Shown here in pieces: positions 594-14,372 of a stretch of 39,222 bases of DNA (position 1 is its first letter; every line of letters begins with the position of its first letter). A program made the translations under genes and the position numbers. The DNA comes from a virus. The stretch spans positions 1 to 39,222 of the IMG/VR virus record IMGVR_UViG_3300025778_000037. One strand, 5' to 3'. Below the pieces are notes generated by a model. It was given only the letters and a program-made list of their open reading frames with translations. It did not search any database and had not been told where the DNA came from.

Positions 594-3220
594 TATTTAG
601 CCTTTGATAGTTCGTGACGCATTGCGTCTAATGAGTCAGCGAAGGATACTTTGCCGCCGTGGGCTTTTAAAAGATCAGTTGATTCTTTTTCCATAGGATC
701 AAATGCAGCAAATTTTGATCGAACTTGTTTGGGGTGGAATGGGATAACAACCTGATGTCCTTCGCCGCCACCTTTTCCGCCAACGTCAATAATTCCATCA
801 TGTCCAAGTTGTTTTAATGCGTTAGTAACTTTGTCAGGTATTGATGTCCAAACATAAGAATTTTTACCTTCGTTTATATCTTTTTGTAATTCATCAACCC
901 ATTGTTTTGGAGTGTAATGTGATTCTTTTGCCCACTGATCTGCGCCAATTTTTAATTTTGTTCTGTCGTTTTTAAATTGTTCTTTTAAAAAAGGTATGAC
1001 ATTGTTAGTGAGATGCTCTACATCCGATGTAATCAATGGCTGATCCATCCTAACCTTTCCTGTAAGTACTCCTTGCGCTGCTGTCCAAGGCGCATTAGTT
1101 TGACTTATTTCGTATGGATAACCTGCAACTTTAAATATTTTTGATAAATCTTCAGGATTGTCATACAGTTCACCAGACTCTCCCCAAAGATTTCTTAACG
1201 CTGCCAATGGATTTCCACGCTCTTCTTGCAATACATGATCAAGATGCCGCTTATCGGCAATGCTTGCATTAGATCCTTCAGGATGCAAAGTAAATGCACC
1301 AGATGCTTCTTTGGGATTTTCATATCCTGTTCTGTAATAACCACTTAATATTTTTTTCTTTTGATCTGGTAACAAATAATGCCAGCTTTGCTCAACAGTA
1401 ATTAGATTTTTTCCTTTTATTCCCAAATCTTTAGGATTGACTTGAAAATAATTTGCCATATTTCCTTCGTCATACATTGAAGTATCGGCTTTACTTGTTG
1501 CGTATTTTGATGCCAATTCAGGTTTATCTGTTCCATATGGCATTGGACCAGATGTGGCACGTTTTGGATCAAGCCCTTTCCCCTCTAACAATCTATCTAA
1601 TCTTTTCGTTCCATGTAAATAATCATAATAATTTTGTGCTGCAAGGCGATCTTGAGCTGTATTCTCTGGGTGCAATCCCAACCCGCCTTGTTCAATAGGT
1701 AATGCCGCATTACGCTGTGCTGTTTGATGAGCAATTTTAACTGGAGTTAATAACTTACCACCTGATGTAGGTGGCGCAGCATACGATGCCGGAGCAACCA
1801 TGCCGGGCATCCTACCTTGCAAATACATCTCAGCCGCCATCGCCGCGGTATCTTTGATCTCTGGCAATGCACGACTAGCCATGTACCTAGCGGCACCCGG
1901 TATTGCGTGCAGCTCACCCGTCTTTCCAATCAGCCCCATCGTTGGATCAAGGCCCATCGAAGAGCCTGTCAAGTGCTCAACACCTGAGAACAGGTCACCG
2001 ATCGCCTTAATGACGTGGCCTTGACCGCGGCCACGAGATACCTGATCCTGCGCAAAGTCTATGTCGGACATCCGGTCGGGCTTGATGCCTGAGTCCAATT
2101 GCCTGTTCAAGTCAGCCATGCGTAAGTCATAACTTGTCTGCGGATTAGGCTTAACCTGACCTGACTCATCAAGCAACGGAACACCCAGCGCAGTATAGGC
2201 TTGTGATGCAGGCTTTCTGTTCACGCTGAACGCATTGGTGTCGGGCGCTCTCTCAAGCGAAATACCATCATATGGCATGTCAACTACGCCACCACGATCC
2301 ATGTGCGCTATGCCGCCAGATGCCATACGTTGCGGCTGGTTCATAACCGCCAGCTTAGCCAGATCGAGGTTGAGCATCTCGTTGGCTTGCGGATCGCGCA
2401 CGGTGTCCTTGATCGCCTCGACCGCAGGGGTTTGCGTGTCGGTGATCATCCCACCGTCGGCAAACCCCATCACGCGCTTAACTTTGTCAATATACGACTC
2501 ATTGTTAGGTACGAATGTCCCAGTGTCTGGCGTGATGCTGTTCACACCCGGCATCGCCTTTGTGTAATAGTCGCGCTGCGCGGCCTGATCAGGAAACAGT
2601 GCGCGGCCTTCAGGTGAGTTGATAAAATCACCACCCTCTGCAGCCACGTTGTGCGCTCGGGAGTTGATGTTCGCCCATGCCTCGAGCGGATTGTCAAACC
2701 TGTTTGCGGACGGGAATACACTATTTCGCATTTCAGGCGACAGATACCGAGCGCGTTCGAGAATGTCGTTGTCTTTGCTAAGGTCCACGCCTGCACGGTT
2801 GTTCATCTGCAGCGTGTGGGTTAGCTCATGCGGCACGGTGTTGAACGCCTCTTGCATGTTCTGGACGACGGCCTTGTTAGGCGCCGACTTGTCAACGTAG
2901 CCAGCCATGTTGCTGTTGTTGATGTTGAATTCTAAGTTGGCCCGATCATACGGGCTAAGTGACTCGAGCCAGCGATCAGGGTTGCTCGACTGGTTCGCGG
3001 CCTGCAGCAAACGGATTGCCTCTTGTTGCGTCTGGCTCATGCGCCCGGGGTAATACCTGCCGCCAGCGACGATACGGTCCAGCTCCTTACGATTGCCACC
3101 GATCTCAGCCATGATATCAGCCAGCGTAGGCTTAGACTGCGGCTTCAAGTCGTTGATGTCGTCTTCCATGGCACGCTCGGTTGCACTTTTTTGTTTGGCT
3201 GGAGTCGGCATAAGCGTCAC
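593..3220 (-). CDS. large multi-domain (polyvalent-type) protein: zincin-like protease plus ADP-ribosyltransferase-like domain
   Basis: This 875-residue protein lies between TerL and portal. Near residues 131-135 it has HELTH, an HExxH zinc-binding motif, followed by a possible third ligand in PLEAWAN (E180), which fits a gluzincin-like metallopeptidase. The middle (about 250-320) carries FADGG and MASGG motifs also common in phage virion proteins. From about residue 525 there is an ADP-ribosyltransferase-like fold: YLHGTKRL, then GPMPYGTDKPELASKYA, and near the end DGIIDVGG and QVRSKFAAFDP. Such combinations are known from polyvalent proteins, thought to enter the cell with phage or plasmid DNA and act on host targets. 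The listed start is a GTG overlapping the TerL stop; an ATG at 3211 is an alternative. DNA encoding residues beyond about 490 is clearly AT-richer than the rest. Domain calls rest on motifs; activity is inferred. Confidence 0.7.
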   Translation of the reverse strand: MTLMPTPAKQKSATERAMEDDINDLKPQSKPTLADIMAEIGGNRKELDRIVAGGRYYPGRMSQTQQEAIRLLQAANQSSNPDRWLESLSPYDRANLEFNINNSNMAGYVDKSAPNKAVVQNMQEAFNTVPHELTHTLQMNNRAGVDLSKDNDILERARYLSPEMRNSVFPSANRFDNPLEAWANINSRAHNVAAEGGDFINSPEGRALFPDQAAQRDYYTKAMPGVNSITPDTGTFVPNNESYIDKVKRVMGFADGGMITDTQTPAVEAIKDTVRDPQANEMLNLDLAKLAVMNQPQRMASGGIAHMDRGGVVDMPYDGISLERAPDTNAFSVNRKPASQAYTALGVPLLDESGQVKPNPQTSYDLRMADLNRQLDSGIKPDRMSDIDFAQDQVSRGRGQGHVIKAIGDLFSGVEHLTGSSMGLDPTMGLIGKTGELHAIPGAARYMASRALPEIKDTAAMAAEMYLQGRMPGMVAPASYAAPPTSGGKLLTPVKIAHQTAQRNAALPIEQGGLGLHPENTAQDRLAAQNYYDYLHGTKRLDRLLEGKGLDPKRATSGPMPYGTDKPELASKYATSKADTSMYDEGNMANYFQVNPKDLGIKGKNLITVEQSWHYLLPDQKKKILSGYYRTGYENPKEASGAFTLHPEGSNASIADKRHLDHVLQEERGNPLAALRNLWGESGELYDNPEDLSKIFKVAGYPYEISQTNAPWTAAQGVLTGKVRMDQPLITSDVEHLTNNVIPFLKEQFKNDRTKLKIGADQWAKESHYTPKQWVDELQKDINEGKNSYVWTSIPDKVTNALKQLGHDGIIDVGGKGGGEGHQVVIPFHPKQVRSKFAAFDPMEKESTDLLKAHGGKVSFADSLDAMRHELSKAK

Positions 3221-4653
3221 ATGGCGTAAGGGTTGCCCCGCTTGATGCGGGTTTCGTCGACGTAATCGCTATCATCATAATGCGGTTCGGGATCAATGTC
3301 CAGATATCCTGAATCCCTCAGATACCTTAGTGCCTGACTCATCGTATCAACGTAGTCGTCGTGATTCGTCTCAGGAAACGAGCAGACCTGCTGCACGAAT
3401 GGCTCCGCCCAATCCCTGATGTATCCCTTGCGCTTAGTCGACTCAGGTAGGTACACGCGACCAGCCGCGATGATGTTCGAGATCAGGTGGACACGCTGCA
3501 CCTTGTCGAGCTTGCCCGGATTGTATCCTCGCACCTGCACATGCGCCCTACCTAAGTCTTGGATCAGTGACTGACCTGACGCCTTTTCCTCGATCAGCAC
3601 GAGGTCGACGCGCTTGCCCGGTTCCCCATACACCGCCGTGTAATCCTCCAGCAGCTTGGGCTTTAGGTCAGGGTAGGCGAGGTGCTCGCTCCAGCAGTCG
3701 ATCAGCATCGCGCACAGTGGGCGGTCTAGCGGCTTGAATATCCCCCACACCGAGCACGCAGTCGGATCACCAGTCGTGCGCTCGGTGTACGCAGTATCAT
3801 AGCTCTGTAGGACGTACTCAAACTGAGGGAACTCGCGCTCCGATGGCCAAAGTCTAAACCAGTCACGGTTGATGATCCCGCCTTCCTCTGGATCGATGAT
3901 CTCAGCATAAATTTCTTGCCTACCAATTTTCGTGCCTTCATAGCTAAGAATCTGCTCCCTGAATGATGGTGCGAGGTTGTCGATGTTCGAGTAGGTCGAG
4001 GCGGTGGTCACCACCACGTTGTCGCCGTCGCGCTCAATGAGCTCCATGATGAGCTCCTTCGGCTTAGGCGTCGTCGTCGCCAGTATGCGCGTATGCTCCC
4101 CCAGTCGCACCGAGAACATGATCATGTCCCACGCCTCTCTGAGGTACTCCCACGCTGCGAGCTCATCGAGCCATGCGCCGTGATACTGACCGCCACGGAA
4201 GCGCTCGGGCTCGGAGCTCGGCACACCCTTGATGAGCGAGCCATTGATCAGCCTGAGCTCGTGGTACGACTTGTTGTAGTCCTTGATCAGCTCTGGCGGG
4301 ATCACGTTGAGCAGACCTGAGTCACCCTCATAGCAGGTGGCACGCACGTCTGCCGAGGTGGGGGCGGAGACCAGCCAGCGGGTGTTGGGCATCTCCCACG
4401 CCCACCAGCCGATCTGCTCCGCTGCGACGCGAGTCTTGCCTGCTCCTCGTCCTGCCAGTAGCAGCCAGATCGACCACCAGTCGCCTGACGGTAGTATTTG
4501 GTGTGGGTGTGCGGACGATAGCCACTTCAGCCGCCAGTGGAACGATATCCGCTGGATGTCGGTCGCCTTGAGGTACATCTCGCGGAATTCAGGGCTCTTG
4601 AATAGCTTGATCGATTCCGCAAGCGTGGAGTCCGACTCCACTTCACTCTTCAT
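3217..4653 (-). CDS. terL: terminase large subunit (packaging ATPase/nuclease)
   Basis: The 478-residue protein has a Walker A motif GRGAGKT (residues 68-74), a Walker B-like AWLDELAAW (D163, E164), a coupling-type motif ATTTPKP (about 192-198), and a C-terminal RNase H-like nuclease with SYDTAY (D286) and LIEEKASG (about 353-360). It pumps DNA into the prohead through the portal and cuts the concatemer. The frame is open up to a TTG at 4677, but the ATG at 4653 has an AGG Shine-Dalgarno core about 6 nt upstream, so I chose that start. It overlaps the small subunit by 11 bp. The nuclease and ATPase residues appear intact. Confidence 0.95.
   Translation of the reverse strand: MKSEVESDSTLAESIKLFKSPEFREMYLKATDIQRISFHWRLKWLSSAHPHQILPSGDWWSIWLLLAGRGAGKTRVAAEQIGWWAWEMPNTRWLVSAPTSADVRATCYEGDSGLLNVIPPELIKDYNKSYHELRLINGSLIKGVPSSEPERFRGGQYHGAWLDELAAWEYLREAWDMIMFSVRLGEHTRILATTTPKPKELIMELIERDGDNVVVTTASTYSNIDNLAPSFREQILSYEGTKIGRQEIYAEIIDPEEGGIINRDWFRLWPSEREFPQFEYVLQSYDTAYTERTTGDPTACSVWGIFKPLDRPLCAMLIDCWSEHLAYPDLKPKLLEDYTAVYGEPGKRVDLVLIEEKASGQSLIQDLGRAHVQVRGYNPGKLDKVQRVHLISNIIAAGRVYLPESTKRKGYIRDWAEPFVQQVCSFPETNHDDYVDTMSQALRYLRDSGYLDIDPEPHYDDSDYVDETRIKRGNPYAM
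4625..4641. repeat. 17-bp palindrome, copy 1 of 2 (GTGGAGTCCGACTCCAC)
   Basis: A near-perfect inverted repeat (7-bp arms, 3-bp centre) at the start of terL coding sequence. The identical 17-mer, in the other orientation, is in the untranslated leader at 8188-8204. Here it encodes part of VESDST, so it may be a coincidence of coding sequence. Confidence 0.6.
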
Positions 4654-5125: not shown

Positions 5126-5356
5126 TCAAAGCGGATGTGATACCCGCGATTGTAGCGACCTTCGTGGTTTGGGACTACCCCCCTTGTTCCATTGTATCCA
5201 CCTTACCTCGCAGGAGTGGCATAGCTCCCTTGATGCTTTGTTGTTTTGGATTTCTCGAGAACCCGCCTCGTTGTCGTTGAGGAAGCCACAGAACGTGTTC
5301 TCACCATCCCAGATGTGAGCGATCCTGCCTGTACGCCTGTCGTAGAAGTATTTCAT
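5126..5356 (-). CDS. small hypothetical protein
   Basis: The 76-residue product is not recognised. It starts MKYFYDRRTGRIAHIWDGE and has a CxxC (LCHSCEVRW) with one further cysteine, so a small metal-binding fold is possible. Its ATG overlaps the stop of the preceding Lar-like gene (ATGA), with an AAAGGG ribosome site upstream. It ends 10 bp before terS. Position suggests expression with the packaging genes. The Arg-rich C-terminus could be read-on sequence. Confidence 0.6.
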   Translation of the reverse strand: MKYFYDRRTGRIAHIWDGENTFCGFLNDNEAGSREIQNNKASRELCHSCEVRWIQWNKGGSPKPRRSLQSRVSHPL

Positions 5357-5553
5357 TCCTTAACCCTTTTATTCCATATTCCAGCAGCGCCATCAGGATC
5401 AGGTTGAATCCAGTGCGTTGCCCCACATTCATAATTCTTGCACCTCACGCGCCAGCCTGTCCCCTTGTTCATCGGTTCTAGCGTTGCTGCGCTTTCGCAG
5501 AGTGGACACGGCTTGAGCTCGTGGGTCAGTTGTGTAAGTACGTTCGCTTTCAT
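5353..5553 (-). CDS. Lar-like zinc-ribbon protein (restriction-alleviation family)
   Basis: The 66-residue protein has two cysteine pairs, LKPCPLCESAA and RVRCKNYECGATHW, followed by GAAGIWNKR. This is the layout of Lar-like zinc-ribbon proteins (KPCPFCG ... WN.R), common in phages and named after the Rac-prophage Lar protein that alleviates type I restriction. Most family members are untested. The frame is open to 5628, but the ATG at 5553 has AAGGA 5 nt upstream and gives a family-sized protein. It is the first gene after the structured non-coding region, so it may head the packaging operon. Confidence 0.72.
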   Translation of the reverse strand: MKANVLTQLTHELKPCPLCESAATLEPMNKGTGWRVRCKNYECGATHWIQPDPDGAAGIWNKRVKE

Positions 5554-5953
5554 CGCCATCCTTATTATGCAGACTAGGAAACAGTACGGAGTGATGGACA
5601 AAACTCCCCCAAGGGTGACCGTAGCCATCCCTCGAGGTGTTCCGTATGCTGACTGAGGTATCCAGTGACTATCGCAACGGGCTGTGCTTATCGCTCATTA
5701 TTCCAGCACAACTGATCAGACTATCGCCCCCTAATGTGCGGAGACCCGATACCGCTCTGACCGAGCTTGTCATCACAGGGTGCTTTGTATTCAGCTCTCC
5801 CACCAGATTGATCTGATGGAGCTGCTCATCGCATGGTGCTACCTGTGACCGCTCTCAACTCCCACGGTTGCCACTTTCGTTTAGTTTGGCACTGTCACGC
5901 TTTGCTTGATCCAACACGGTTGACCCTGAACATCTCAAGCACTTCGGGAGAAT

Positions 5954-6072
5954 AAAAAAAGCCGCTTTAGTCTGCACCCCGTGGAACCCAGTCTTTGTGG
6001 GACTGACCCCCTTAACGGGGCGGGACGCATACTAAAGCGGCTTCATTCGTCGAGGTTCCAGCTCGACTACAT
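5954..6072 (-). ncRNA. putative small RNA / terminated leader, Y-shaped with U7 tail
   Basis: Transcription from the promoter at 6079-6106 would start near 6072. The RNA opens with a perfect hairpin GTCGAG-N7-CTCGAC (6067-6049). Then 6043-6021 pairs with 5981-5959 in a 23-position stem with a single mismatch, enclosing two hairpins: CCCC-GTTAA-GGGG (6020-6008) and CAGTC-N7-GACTG (6005-5989). It ends in U7 (5960-5954). Two pairs of the stem are G-U only on the minus strand and would be mismatches on the plus strand, so the minus RNA is the folded species. It may be a stand-alone sRNA or a leader cut short by a regulated terminator, like the lambda 6S RNA ahead of the late genes. Confidence 0.6.
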
Positions 6073-6078
6073 GCCTAC

Positions 6079-6106
6079 ATTTTACTACTCTGACAGCCTA
6101 TGTCAA
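6079..6106 (-). promoter_or_regulatory. sigma70-type promoter ahead of the structured RNA
   Basis: On the minus strand there is TTGACA (6106-6101), a 16-bp spacer and TAAAAT (6084-6079). The -35 box is perfect and the -10 box matches five of six. It lies between two leftward terminators, about 520 bp ahead of the Lar-like gene, and is the best promoter I find for the packaging genes. Confidence 0.65.
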
Positions 6107-6146
6107 ATGATTTGTGAGCTCCCATAAAGCAGGGTTTTAGTCAAAG

Positions 6147-6180
6147 AAAAAAAACCACGCCAAGTCGCTAACACTCTGGC
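6147..6180 (-). terminator. intrinsic terminator at the end of the leftward early transcript
   Basis: On the minus strand a 7-bp stem with one bulged base (GCCA-AGT arms, 6180-6159, loop GTTAGCG) is followed 4 nt later by eight U (6154-6147). It lies downstream of the last early gene and upstream of the promoter at 6079-6106, so it would separate early from late transcription. Confidence 0.55.
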
Positions 6181-7308: not shown

Positions 7309-8160
7309 TTACCAGCCGAACCTGTCGGCGCAGATTGGGCCAATCCCACGGTCAATCGACTCCTGATTCGTAAGCTCGCGGGAGCAGATCGCGCACTGAC
7401 CGAAGCGGCGACCGTAGGCGACCGCTGCAGCCTCTGGATCAGCAGCCGCTGCCAAGATATTACCTTCGGTCTGATCGTCGCACTCGCGGCTCTTGAAGAG
7501 CTTGCCGCCTGCAATCTTACCGAGGTACGTCTCGCCTGCCTTGACGTAGATCGCGCCAGCGTTGTTGCCTGTCACTGGAGCTGGTGAGAAGCGGAAGTCA
7601 GCCAGACGCAGCTTGGGGCGCTTGATGCCTGCCTCGATAGCCTTGGCGAAGGACACCTCGATCTTGCTGATGTCGATCACTGGAGCAGCCTCGATGCGTG
7701 CTGCCTTCTCTACAGCACGCTCTGCTGTGCGGATATTGTCGCGCTCGATGCAGCGACGCACGGCTGCGAGCTGGTTCTCTGTGAGCGAACCGAACTTGTT
7801 CAGTGCCTGTGCCAAAGATTGTGCGAACTCGAACTTGGAGCTATTCAGACCAATCCAAACGATTTCCTCAGCGTGCGCGACACCGAACGCATCGATCTGC
7901 GACTGGAGCTCTTCCTGCTTGCGTGCTGCGCTGTTTTGGCGCTGTACAGCAGCCTTCTCGCGGTACTGTGGGAAGGTTTTGAATTCGTGAAAGCCCTTGC
8001 CACCGCAAGAGAAGCAGTTGCCGACAACGCGACCTGTGTAACCAACGAACTTTCCGCGACCTGCGCACTTCTTGCAAGGCTCGGTGAAGAGGGTTGTGGT
8101 TTTGATAGAAGCGCCTTCCAGAGCTTCGAGGTCGTCTTTCATGTTCAAGAGTGTGTTCAT
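7309..8160 (-). CDS. zinc-binding phage protein: DnaJ-like CxxCxGxG pair plus DUF6011-like C-terminus
   Basis: The 283-residue protein has CKKCAGRG (C29, C32) and CFSCGGKG (C49, C52) near the N-terminus, the paired CxxCxGxG motif of the DnaJ zinc domain, but no J domain. A helical, Ala- and Gln-rich middle follows. The C-terminus has CAICSRELTNQES and GIGPICADRFGW (C256, C259, C277), as in the DUF6011 family. Nucleic-acid or protein binding is likely; the role is unknown. It has its own promoter (8213-8242) and the shared 26-nt leader, which suggests strong, separately controlled expression. Confidence 0.75.
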   Translation of the reverse strand: MNTLLNMKDDLEALEGASIKTTTLFTEPCKKCAGRGKFVGYTGRVVGNCFSCGGKGFHEFKTFPQYREKAAVQRQNSAARKQEELQSQIDAFGVAHAEEIVWIGLNSSKFEFAQSLAQALNKFGSLTENQLAAVRRCIERDNIRTAERAVEKAARIEAAPVIDISKIEVSFAKAIEAGIKRPKLRLADFRFSPAPVTGNNAGAIYVKAGETYLGKIAGGKLFKSRECDDQTEGNILAAAADPEAAAVAYGRRFGQCAICSRELTNQESIDRGIGPICADRFGW

Positions 8161-12047: not shown

Positions 12048-12701
12048 TCATCCTTCTATCACCCATCCAGCAAACTCACCCATGCGGAAAAACAGCTTAC
12101 CGTCTGGGATCATTGCTGCGTCAAATGGAATTTGTACTCCAGCCAAGCTCATCTCTTTATCTGTCACAGCGCCGAGCTGAGCACCCTGACGAATTTTCCA
12201 GTGCATGCCAAGGCGCTTCAGGACTGTAGAGAAGTACCCTGTGTGATCGCAAACCTTGTCGACCAATATGATTACCCCACCCTTTTTTAAATTCTCTCTG
12301 ATCGCCTTTAAAACAGCCTCACGCTTATGCACGGGTATAAACATCATTGTCAGGAAGACGATATAAACCTGAGCTGGCGGCAGATTGTAATTACATATGT
12401 CAAATTCATTGACTGTCACGTTGTGGTTGTTCTTAAAGCGCTCCAGCATCACGTCGACCATGCTGCTGCTTTTCTCAATTGCAAGCACTTCCGCTTTGCG
12501 CTCCTCAAGCAATGGCATAAGGTTGTGGATCGTGTTGCCAGTCGATGCGCCGACGTCAACCACCATCTCGCCATCGGTCAGATAGTTGCGCACGATATAG
12601 CACACCGCATCCGTCGCCATGTCGTACCACGGCAATTGCTCGCGCACATGATCATCAAAAATTGATGCAATCTCTGTTGTCTCAAATGTCCATGACTTCA
12701 T
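12048..12701 (-). CDS. class I SAM-dependent methyltransferase, CmoA-like
   Basis: The 217-residue protein has FDDHVREQLPWYDMATDAV near the start and a SAM-binding motif VVDVGASTGNT (about residues 48-58). Then come VLAIEKSSSMVDVM, VFLTMMFIPV, a helix and KKGGVIILVDK, and it ends LFFRMGEFAGWV. Segment by segment this follows CmoA, which makes carboxy-SAM for tRNA wobble uridine modification. The stretch that in CmoA holds the QKR and LENV motifs is shortened and replaced, so true CmoA activity is doubtful. It is coupled to the DNA methyltransferase stop by ATGA, with an AGAGG ribosome site. The target may be tRNA, DNA base or a small molecule. Confidence 0.72.
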   Translation of the reverse strand: MKSWTFETTEIASIFDDHVREQLPWYDMATDAVCYIVRNYLTDGEMVVDVGASTGNTIHNLMPLLEERKAEVLAIEKSSSMVDVMLERFKNNHNVTVNEFDICNYNLPPAQVYIVFLTMMFIPVHKREAVLKAIRENLKKGGVIILVDKVCDHTGYFSTVLKRLGMHWKIRQGAQLGAVTDKEMSLAGVQIPFDAAMIPDGKLFFRMGEFAGWVIEG

Positions 12702-13723
12702 ATTGGTAACCTCTTTGAAATTTCGTAAATAACTGGGATCGTTACTGTCCTGCCGCACCGCTCGTATCGTTCAGCGTCCTTAACTTCAGTGCCATCTGCG
12801 TACCACTTCGTAAAATTGTCAGGAAGCCCTTGGAGGCGCTCACACTCGAGCGGGGTTAATCGCCTAAGCCTCTCATTAACAATCACGCCATGACGATCCT
12901 GCGCGGTCAGAGTGAATGCTGGCTCGTTGTGATCCTTTACCCTGCGACCGTTCTGGCGTTTCTCTTTGCGCATAGGCGTGAGCACCGCACGCACTTGCAT
13001 GACAGCACCACGACCCTGATTGTTTTGTATTCCCTTCCAGTAGTGGCCGTCGAGCGTTGGGAACACGTCCTTGACCTGCATGACTTTGCCAGTGACAAAC
13101 GGCATCAGAATAGAGTTGCCTGTGTCGTATCTGGTTCGACCTCTTTCGTCGGCTTCTGTTTGATCTTGCGCTTGAACATCCTCTGGAATGCATCGTCCGA
13201 GAGGAAATACTTTGGGTCGGGGTTTTCCTCTAAGATGTCCGACAATAAATACCCTCTCCCTATTTTGCGGGACTCCAAAATTTTGGCTGTTAACAACTTC
13301 CCATTGAACGTCGTACCCCAGTTCATCAAGACTTGAGATGATGACAGCAAAGGTTCGTCCGCCGTCGTGGTTGAGGAGTCCTTTGACGTTTTCAAGGAAA
13401 ACATACGGTATTCGCTTGTCTCTGAGAATCCTACAGATTTCAAAAAAGAGAGTACCTCGAGTGTCTTCCGCTGAGAATCCAGATCGCTTTCCAGCAACTG
13501 AAAAAGTCGCGCACGGGAATCCTCCACAAAGGAGGTCAGCGTCTGGGATGTCGTCTGGGGAAACAGTTCTAATGTCTCGTCCATCAGGTTGGTGTCCGAA
13601 GTTTCTTTCATATATCCTCCGTGGCTTGTCTAATATTTCGTTTGCCCACACGCACTGGTGACCCGCCTTTTCTAACCCAAGGCGAAAGCCACCGATGCCA
13701 GCAAAAAGTTCAATGAATTTCAT
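12698..13723 (-). CDS. DNA (cytosine-5-)-methyltransferase
   Basis: The 341-residue protein has the C5-methyltransferase motifs in order: FAGIGGFRLGLE (I, residues 7-18), GGFPCATFS with catalytic C71 (IV), FLENVKG (VI, about 109-115), NFGVPQNRERVF (VIII), then a target-recognition region and RRLTPLECERLQGLPDNF (IX). In motif X the usual GN[AS]V is GRTV (G324-R325), an unusual change. It would protect phage DNA from host restriction or act in regulation. No partner nuclease is visible. It is coupled on both sides by ATGA overlaps. A long frame nested within it is listed separately. Confidence 0.93.
   Translation of the reverse strand: MKFIELFAGIGGFRLGLEKAGHQCVWANEILDKPRRIYERNFGHQPDGRDIRTVSPDDIPDADLLCGGFPCATFSVAGKRSGFSAEDTRGTLFFEICRILRDKRIPYVFLENVKGLLNHDGGRTFAVIISSLDELGYDVQWEVVNSQNFGVPQNRERVFIVGHLRGKPRPKVFPLGRCIPEDVQAQDQTEADERGRTRYDTGNSILMPFVTGKVMQVKDVFPTLDGHYWKGIQNNQGRGAVMQVRAVLTPMRKEKRQNGRRVKDHNEPAFTLTAQDRHGVIVNERLRRLTPLECERLQGLPDNFTKWYADGTEVKDAERYERCGRTVTIPVIYEISKRLPI
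13105..13611 (-). other. possible overlapping gene nested +1 inside the DNA methyltransferase
   Basis: A 168-codon open frame on the same strand, wholly within the methyltransferase gene. Its ATG is preceded by GGAGG at 4-nt spacing, a very good ribosome site. The product (MKETSDTNLMDETLELF ... ending EVEPDTTQATLF) is soluble and acidic at the start. The stretch SDILEENPDPKYFLS is read from the codons for the conserved motif VIII region, and I recall similar database strings, possibly also mis-frames of methyltransferases. Several other same-strand shadow frames in this window exceed 100 codons, so length alone is weak evidence. Confidence 0.25.
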
Positions 13724-14339: not shown

Positions 14340-14372
14340 CGTTAATATAATCTTAACGAATTCATATGTCAA
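14340..14372 (-). promoter_or_regulatory. strong promoter with CGTTAA-N7-TTAACG operator
   Basis: Minus strand: TTGACA (14372-14367), 17 bp, TATATT (14349-14344). The -10 box lies inside a perfect inverted repeat CGTTAA-N7-TTAACG (14340-14358). The same half-site spacing is seen at 7256-7272. Confidence 0.7.

Follow-up and report, generated by a model that had tools for sequence, protein, structure and literature searches.

The question raised by this locus is what a compact promoter, structured RNA and terminator, packed into 153 bp, do in a phage genome. The locus lies in a virus record of 39,222 bases (the window), which comes from a virus of bacteria and carries most of its genes on the minus strand. 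No tRNA, tmRNA or known ribozyme or riboswitch family was found in the window, and there are no convincing genes in the approximately 700 nt that separate the early genes from a Lar-like gene (5628-5353). The neighbouring genes are:

4677-3217, minus strand: TerL
5116-4643, minus strand: TerS
5353-5628, minus strand: Lar-like restriction alleviation protein, the first gene past the RNA1-RNA2 cassette described below
7309-8160, minus strand: DUF6011 protein (phrog_4046), with a copy at 3192-4019 in the viral contig L089

On the minus strand from 6106 to 5954, a promoter, a hairpin, a Y-shaped fold and a U7 tail occur together. We call the predicted transcript RNA1. The elements of the unit, and one hairpin upstream of it, are:

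6146..6180, minus strand: terminator-like hairpin GCCA.AG...CTTGGC followed by T8, recognized by eye and absent from the terminator scan output
6079..6106, minus strand: sigma70-type promoter TTGACA-N16-TAAAAT (-35 at 6106-6101, 16-nt spacer, -10 at 6084-6079)
6049..6067, minus strand: P1, a hairpin near the expected 5' end (pairs 6067-6062/6054-6049), with two pairs changed on both sides in relatives
6021..6043, minus strand: 5' strand of P2, the long closing or terminator stem
6008..6020, minus strand: P3, hairpin CCCC-GUUAA-GGGG, nearly invariant in close relatives and variable elsewhere
5989..6005, minus strand: P4, hairpin with a conserved CCACAAA loop, four of its five pairs covarying
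5959..5981, minus strand: 3' strand of P2
5954..5960, minus strand: U7 tract of the predicted intrinsic terminator, with at least four consecutive U in every member

The promoter matches the consensus at 11 of 12 positions, and the predicted transcript start near 6072 fits the position of the -10 box. Across the 39 kb, a single further site on the minus strand reaches that score, a strong promoter-like TTGACA-N17-TATATT at 14372 (11/12). The upstream hairpin with its T8 appears to insulate the unit from the preceding gene, with upstream transcription apparently terminating there. P2 (6043-6021/5981-5959) consists of 22 standard pairs, two of them G.U, and one A.G mismatch. The predicted fold of RNA1 has an energy of -63.1 kcal/mol, compared with -44.7 kcal/mol for shuffled sequences (z = -4.05; 0 of 200 shuffles was as good). 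From these signals in the sequence we infer that the unit is transcribed and terminated. Conservation and covariation, described next, strongly support an autonomous structured RNA that brings its own promoter and terminator.

Covariance searches found the unit in many environmental phages, related and unrelated. Relatives collected with TerL/TerS and by scanning viral contigs for exact patterns are 74-92% identical across the unit, and the promoter, P1, P2, P3, P4 and the U tract all align among them; nhmmer and the covariance model added L174, L187 and L241/L244/L245 as members. TerL/TerS or RNA1 patterns (CM, BLAST, nhmmer) thus yielded 16 RNA1 contigs, and about 25 further loci were reached via the second RNA described below. 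The family, represented by model R2 with an RNA1 length of 95-140 nt, has P1, the P2 terminator stem and a pseudoknot of the P1 loop, together with the sigma70-type promoter and the U tract. Nearly all relatives in the window clade keep the promoter (10-12 of 12 matches, same 16-nt spacing); across the family the mean best score was 10.1/12 versus 6.4 in shuffled sequences, several members being weaker. Whole-record searches found RNA1 as a single copy in each positive record and in none of 26 other records, 11 of which exceed 50 kb; it is absent from most TerL/TerS relatives searched, long records included.

RNAalifold, applied to the relatives, recovered the Y shape and P1, and in 13 of the pairs both partners had changed. 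In 14 close relatives, 99.6% of the pair cells of 39 pairs (pseudoknot included) are paired, and 15 pairs carry double changes versus 5.4 in column shuffles; the covariation score was 0.276 versus 0.150 in shuffles and at most 0.086 in slid controls. On the minus strand about 49 of these cells hold G.U, for which the plus strand would have A.C, and only 2 are unpaired, so the minus-strand RNA is the selected molecule. An earlier, sequence-only reading of the window had described the promoter, the start-proximal hairpin, the Y-shaped fold with its 22-pair stem and two inner hairpins, and the U7 tail; it had proposed selection on the minus RNA and had named a lack of compensatory stem changes in related phages beforehand as a refuting outcome. 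The comparison bears out each of these claims, the compensatory changes being present. The structural description had left out two parts, a pseudoknot (6060-6054/5988-5982) and a second structured RNA, RNA2, at about 5950-5604. The pseudoknot strands are:

6054..6060, minus strand: 5' strand UGGAACC, in the P1 loop
5982..5988, minus strand: 3' strand GGUUCCA, directly before the 3' strand of P2

In every member examined, the P1 loop is complementary, over 6-11 bp, to the stretch that separates P4 from the 3' half of P2. The pairing is kept with very different sequences (UGGAACC/GGUUCCA, UUGGCGG/CCGCCAA, GUGAGAA/UUCUCAC and CUGGCAGAC/GUCUGCCAG), and such independent solutions in several clades make it hard to doubt. 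Among 16 distinct loop/strand pairs the self-match beats the cross-match (0 of 20,000 permutations, kinship ignored), and for 32 distinct pairs we observed 628 versus 398 (sd 17.5; 0 of 20,000 permutations, kinship again ignored). Slid pseudoknot partners satisfied 28-52% of pairs. The topology would be that of an H-type pseudoknot whose long loop holds the 5' strand of P2 and P3/P4. In the wider family the pseudoknot is kept although P3/P4 are altered or P4 is missing, so the core of RNA1 is P1, P2 and the pseudoknot; there, almost no unpaired seed is conserved and structure alone is kept.

Directly behind the U tract lies the second RNA:

5604..5950, minus strand: RNA2 of class A, a conserved structured non-coding RNA starting about 4 nt past the U tract

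RNA2, of about 270-350 nt, follows the U tract directly in all 16 RNA1 contigs whose discovery did not rely on it, at a spacing of 4-20 nt. It comes in three interchangeable classes: A in the window and seven relatives, B in L010, L018, L021, L174 and L187, and C in L016, L084 and L005. Classes A and B show compensatory changes. Class C is the Rfam family RF02932 (Betaproteobacteria-1), whose members include the RNA that follows RNA1 directly in L016, L084, L005 and the phage genome MW202545: class C scored 90-96 bits and the MW202545 RNA2 100 bits, the cut-off of the covariance model being 49.4 bits. Neither RNA1 nor the class A RNA2 of the window matched RF02932 at that cut-off. Among phages whose TerL is about 85-100% identical the classes swap behind an RNA1 unit that stays constant.

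A scan for class B alone returned 61 viral contigs, and with model R2 a divergent RNA1 was found just upstream of RNA2 in 24 newly fetched class B contigs and in the class A contig L325. In further contigs other elements precede class B RNA2: unrelated terminator-like stems with U tracts directly ahead of it in L306, L311 and L323, a promoter-like stretch with a long U-less hairpin in place of RNA1 in L278, L279, L292, L313 and L320, and the end of a protein gene in L269. RNA1 is therefore not essential for RNA2, and the replacement of RNA1 by a long U-less hairpin before the same RNA2 suggests that RNA2 is plausibly transcribed through its 5' element.

On balance, we favour the view that RNA1 represents a new phage family in which a pseudoknotted intrinsic terminator leaves a stable small RNA and acts as a gate for read-through into RNA2. 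Host RNA polymerase would start at the sigma70 promoter, a few nucleotides upstream of P1; P1, P3 and P4 would fold in that order, after which the P1 loop would pair with the strand before the 3' half of P2. P2 would then zip onto the U tract, and most polymerases would terminate, releasing a compact, stable RNA1, while those reading through, owing either to constitutive leakiness or to regulation, would make the large structured RNA2. On this view RNA1 and RNA2 would share a single insulated transcription unit, whose place in the genome differs from phage to phage. We infer these two outcomes because only 4-20 nt separate the U tract from RNA2 and because the window has no promoter of at least 9/12 from the RNA1 unit to the start of TerS; the occurrence of another promoter-plus-stem element before RNA2 in lineages lacking RNA1 also points to read-through. 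No mutually exclusive antiterminator pairing was found, so any regulation is conjecture. A further point against the mechanism is the unusual terminator stem, which holds P3/P4 among the approximately 40 nt that it encloses. A bolder version is possible, if doubtful: RNA1 may be a sensing or timing terminator in which a pseudoknot tuned by a phage or host factor chooses between the RNA of about 118 nt and read-through into RNA2, the pair being a portable, RNA-only phage device for host takeover or counter-defence of which RF02932 would be one visible fragment.

The adjacency of the two RNAs allows another interpretation, namely that they are two domains of a single non-coding RNA of about 470 nt, with the U tract as a linker or P2 as an RNase III-type processing site and no terminator at all. 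We consider this unlikely. It would account for the constant short spacing, for the lack of a promoter separating RNA1 from RNA2 and for the long U-less hairpins at the same place in other lineages; however, every RNA1 has a GC-rich stem followed by at least four U, as expected under selection for termination, and the RNA2 classes swap behind one RNA1 type.

Less probable still is the alternative offered by the sequence-only reading, a free small RNA, here taken to act in trans, by target pairing or as a protein decoy, RNA2 being merely co-inherited. The 16 of 16 coupling to RNA2 and the near absence of a conserved unpaired seed from the wider family argue against it, whereas the unit's own promoter and terminator, its single copy per record at varying locations, the compact stable fold and the CCACAAA loop conserved in the window clade would all be in keeping with such an RNA.

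The sequence-only reading had compared the unit with lambda pR'/6S RNA/tR', and the layout is alike: a strong promoter, a short structured transcript and an intrinsic terminator lead into codirectional genes. Members of the window clade carry the unit 330-830 nt ahead of TerS and on its strand, upstream transcription appears to be terminated before reaching the unit, and, as noted, no other promoter of at least 9/12 precedes TerS, all of which would suit a device that gates the late genes and is opened by a phage antitermination protein. Elsewhere the layout is lost: in L174, MW202674 and MW202545 the promoter, short transcript and terminator do not stand upstream of late genes. The unit lies between a RusA-like gene and a primase/helicase gene in L174, near Erf with TerS 4 kb away in L187, and beside Erf in MW202674; in MW202545, a complete genome with a 61% identical TerL, it comes just after six tRNA genes, near a 2OG-oxygenase gene and at a distance of about 12 kb from TerL. 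Its occurrence near replication and recombination genes and a tRNA array means that the lambda reading is not general. Even in the window the immediate downstream neighbour is RNA2 and not a late gene. As that reading had also noted, no Q-like gene is evident: PHROGs and Pfam searches found none constantly associated with the unit, the single weak match being phrog_6060 (E = 0.0036) to a 275-aa protein of L089. Promoter spacers differ between clades without a shared element, most TerL/TerS relatives searched, long records too, lack RNA1, and the elaborate, conserved pseudoknotted fold is left unexplained. We therefore regard a lambda-like late-gene device as improbable.

Q and AlpA load at promoters of this kind, according to PMC6606751 and PMC9371919. 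AlpA-type antitermination, as described in PMC9371919, likewise places a bypassable intrinsic terminator behind a promoter; beside RNA1 no AlpA homologue or shared binding element was found, and it is the RNA structure itself that is selected.

A DNA-level element (a cos or pac site) or a chance palindrome is hardly credible, since, for all its nearness to TerS in the window, the unit is not near TerS in other phages, and the compensatory changes and the G.U asymmetry (about 49 versus 2) require pairing of a minus-strand RNA. The packaging RNA of phi29 is a branched RNA of about 120 nt, and the window too has a branched RNA near packaging genes; members of the RNA1 family elsewhere are not near such genes, and RNA1 has no Rfam match. 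GOLLD, ROOL and OLE (PMC12286853) are likewise large structured non-coding RNAs whose function is unknown, and phages carry some of them. One RNA1-RNA2 cassette adjoins a tRNA array, but no match to these Rfam families was obtained, and RNA1-RNA2 is much smaller and in two parts with a predicted terminator between.

Querying phage records at the DNA level with this region of the window gave no match, and searches with other RNA1 members found only MW202674 and MW202545 among phage records. No RNA1 was found in plasmids. A GTDB pattern scan gave 23 matches, which we ascribe to chance as none had a convincing profile score; L159, L165 and L211 were rejected because they look like coding-sequence matches. 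Model R2 had no match in 399 Burkholderiales genomes, 6 of which gave an RF02932 match (4 above the cut-off), and upstream of five of these matches there was no obvious RNA1. RNA1 matched no family of Rfam 15 at gathering or relaxed thresholds, and literature searches returned no description of RNA1 or RNA2. Structured phage RNAs that carry their own signals are an already known kind; within the material searched, what appears to be new is the RNA1 family and the way it is coupled to RNAs of the RF02932 type.

These results yield a phage RNA family that Rfam 15 lacks, together with a clear, testable structural hypothesis of pseudoknot plus terminator. The orphan RF02932 gains a setting in phage genomes, directly behind RNA1. 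The results also reveal structurally different large RNAs swapping behind one leader. If the terminator is regulated, the unit would be a simple phage RNA switch, usable for studying co-transcriptional pseudoknot folding and termination.

Several smaller observations were made along the way. The DUF6011 protein gene is directly upstream of the RNA1 unit in L089, L012 and L014 and is not near the unit in all members; the weak phrog_6060 match belongs to the L089 copy. In MW202545.1 (L252), at 2209-2784 and 2819-3250, the RNA1-RNA2 cassette, with RF02932 as RNA2, comes after the six-gene tRNA array. The window encodes a DNA (cytosine) methyltransferase (12698-13723, minus strand) and a tRNA-methyltransferase-like protein (12048-12758, minus strand). 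Finally, L272, L290 and their relatives have inverted repeats within the -35/-10 spacer, whose sequences differ by phage (CATCG...CGATG, CCTCG...CGAGG).
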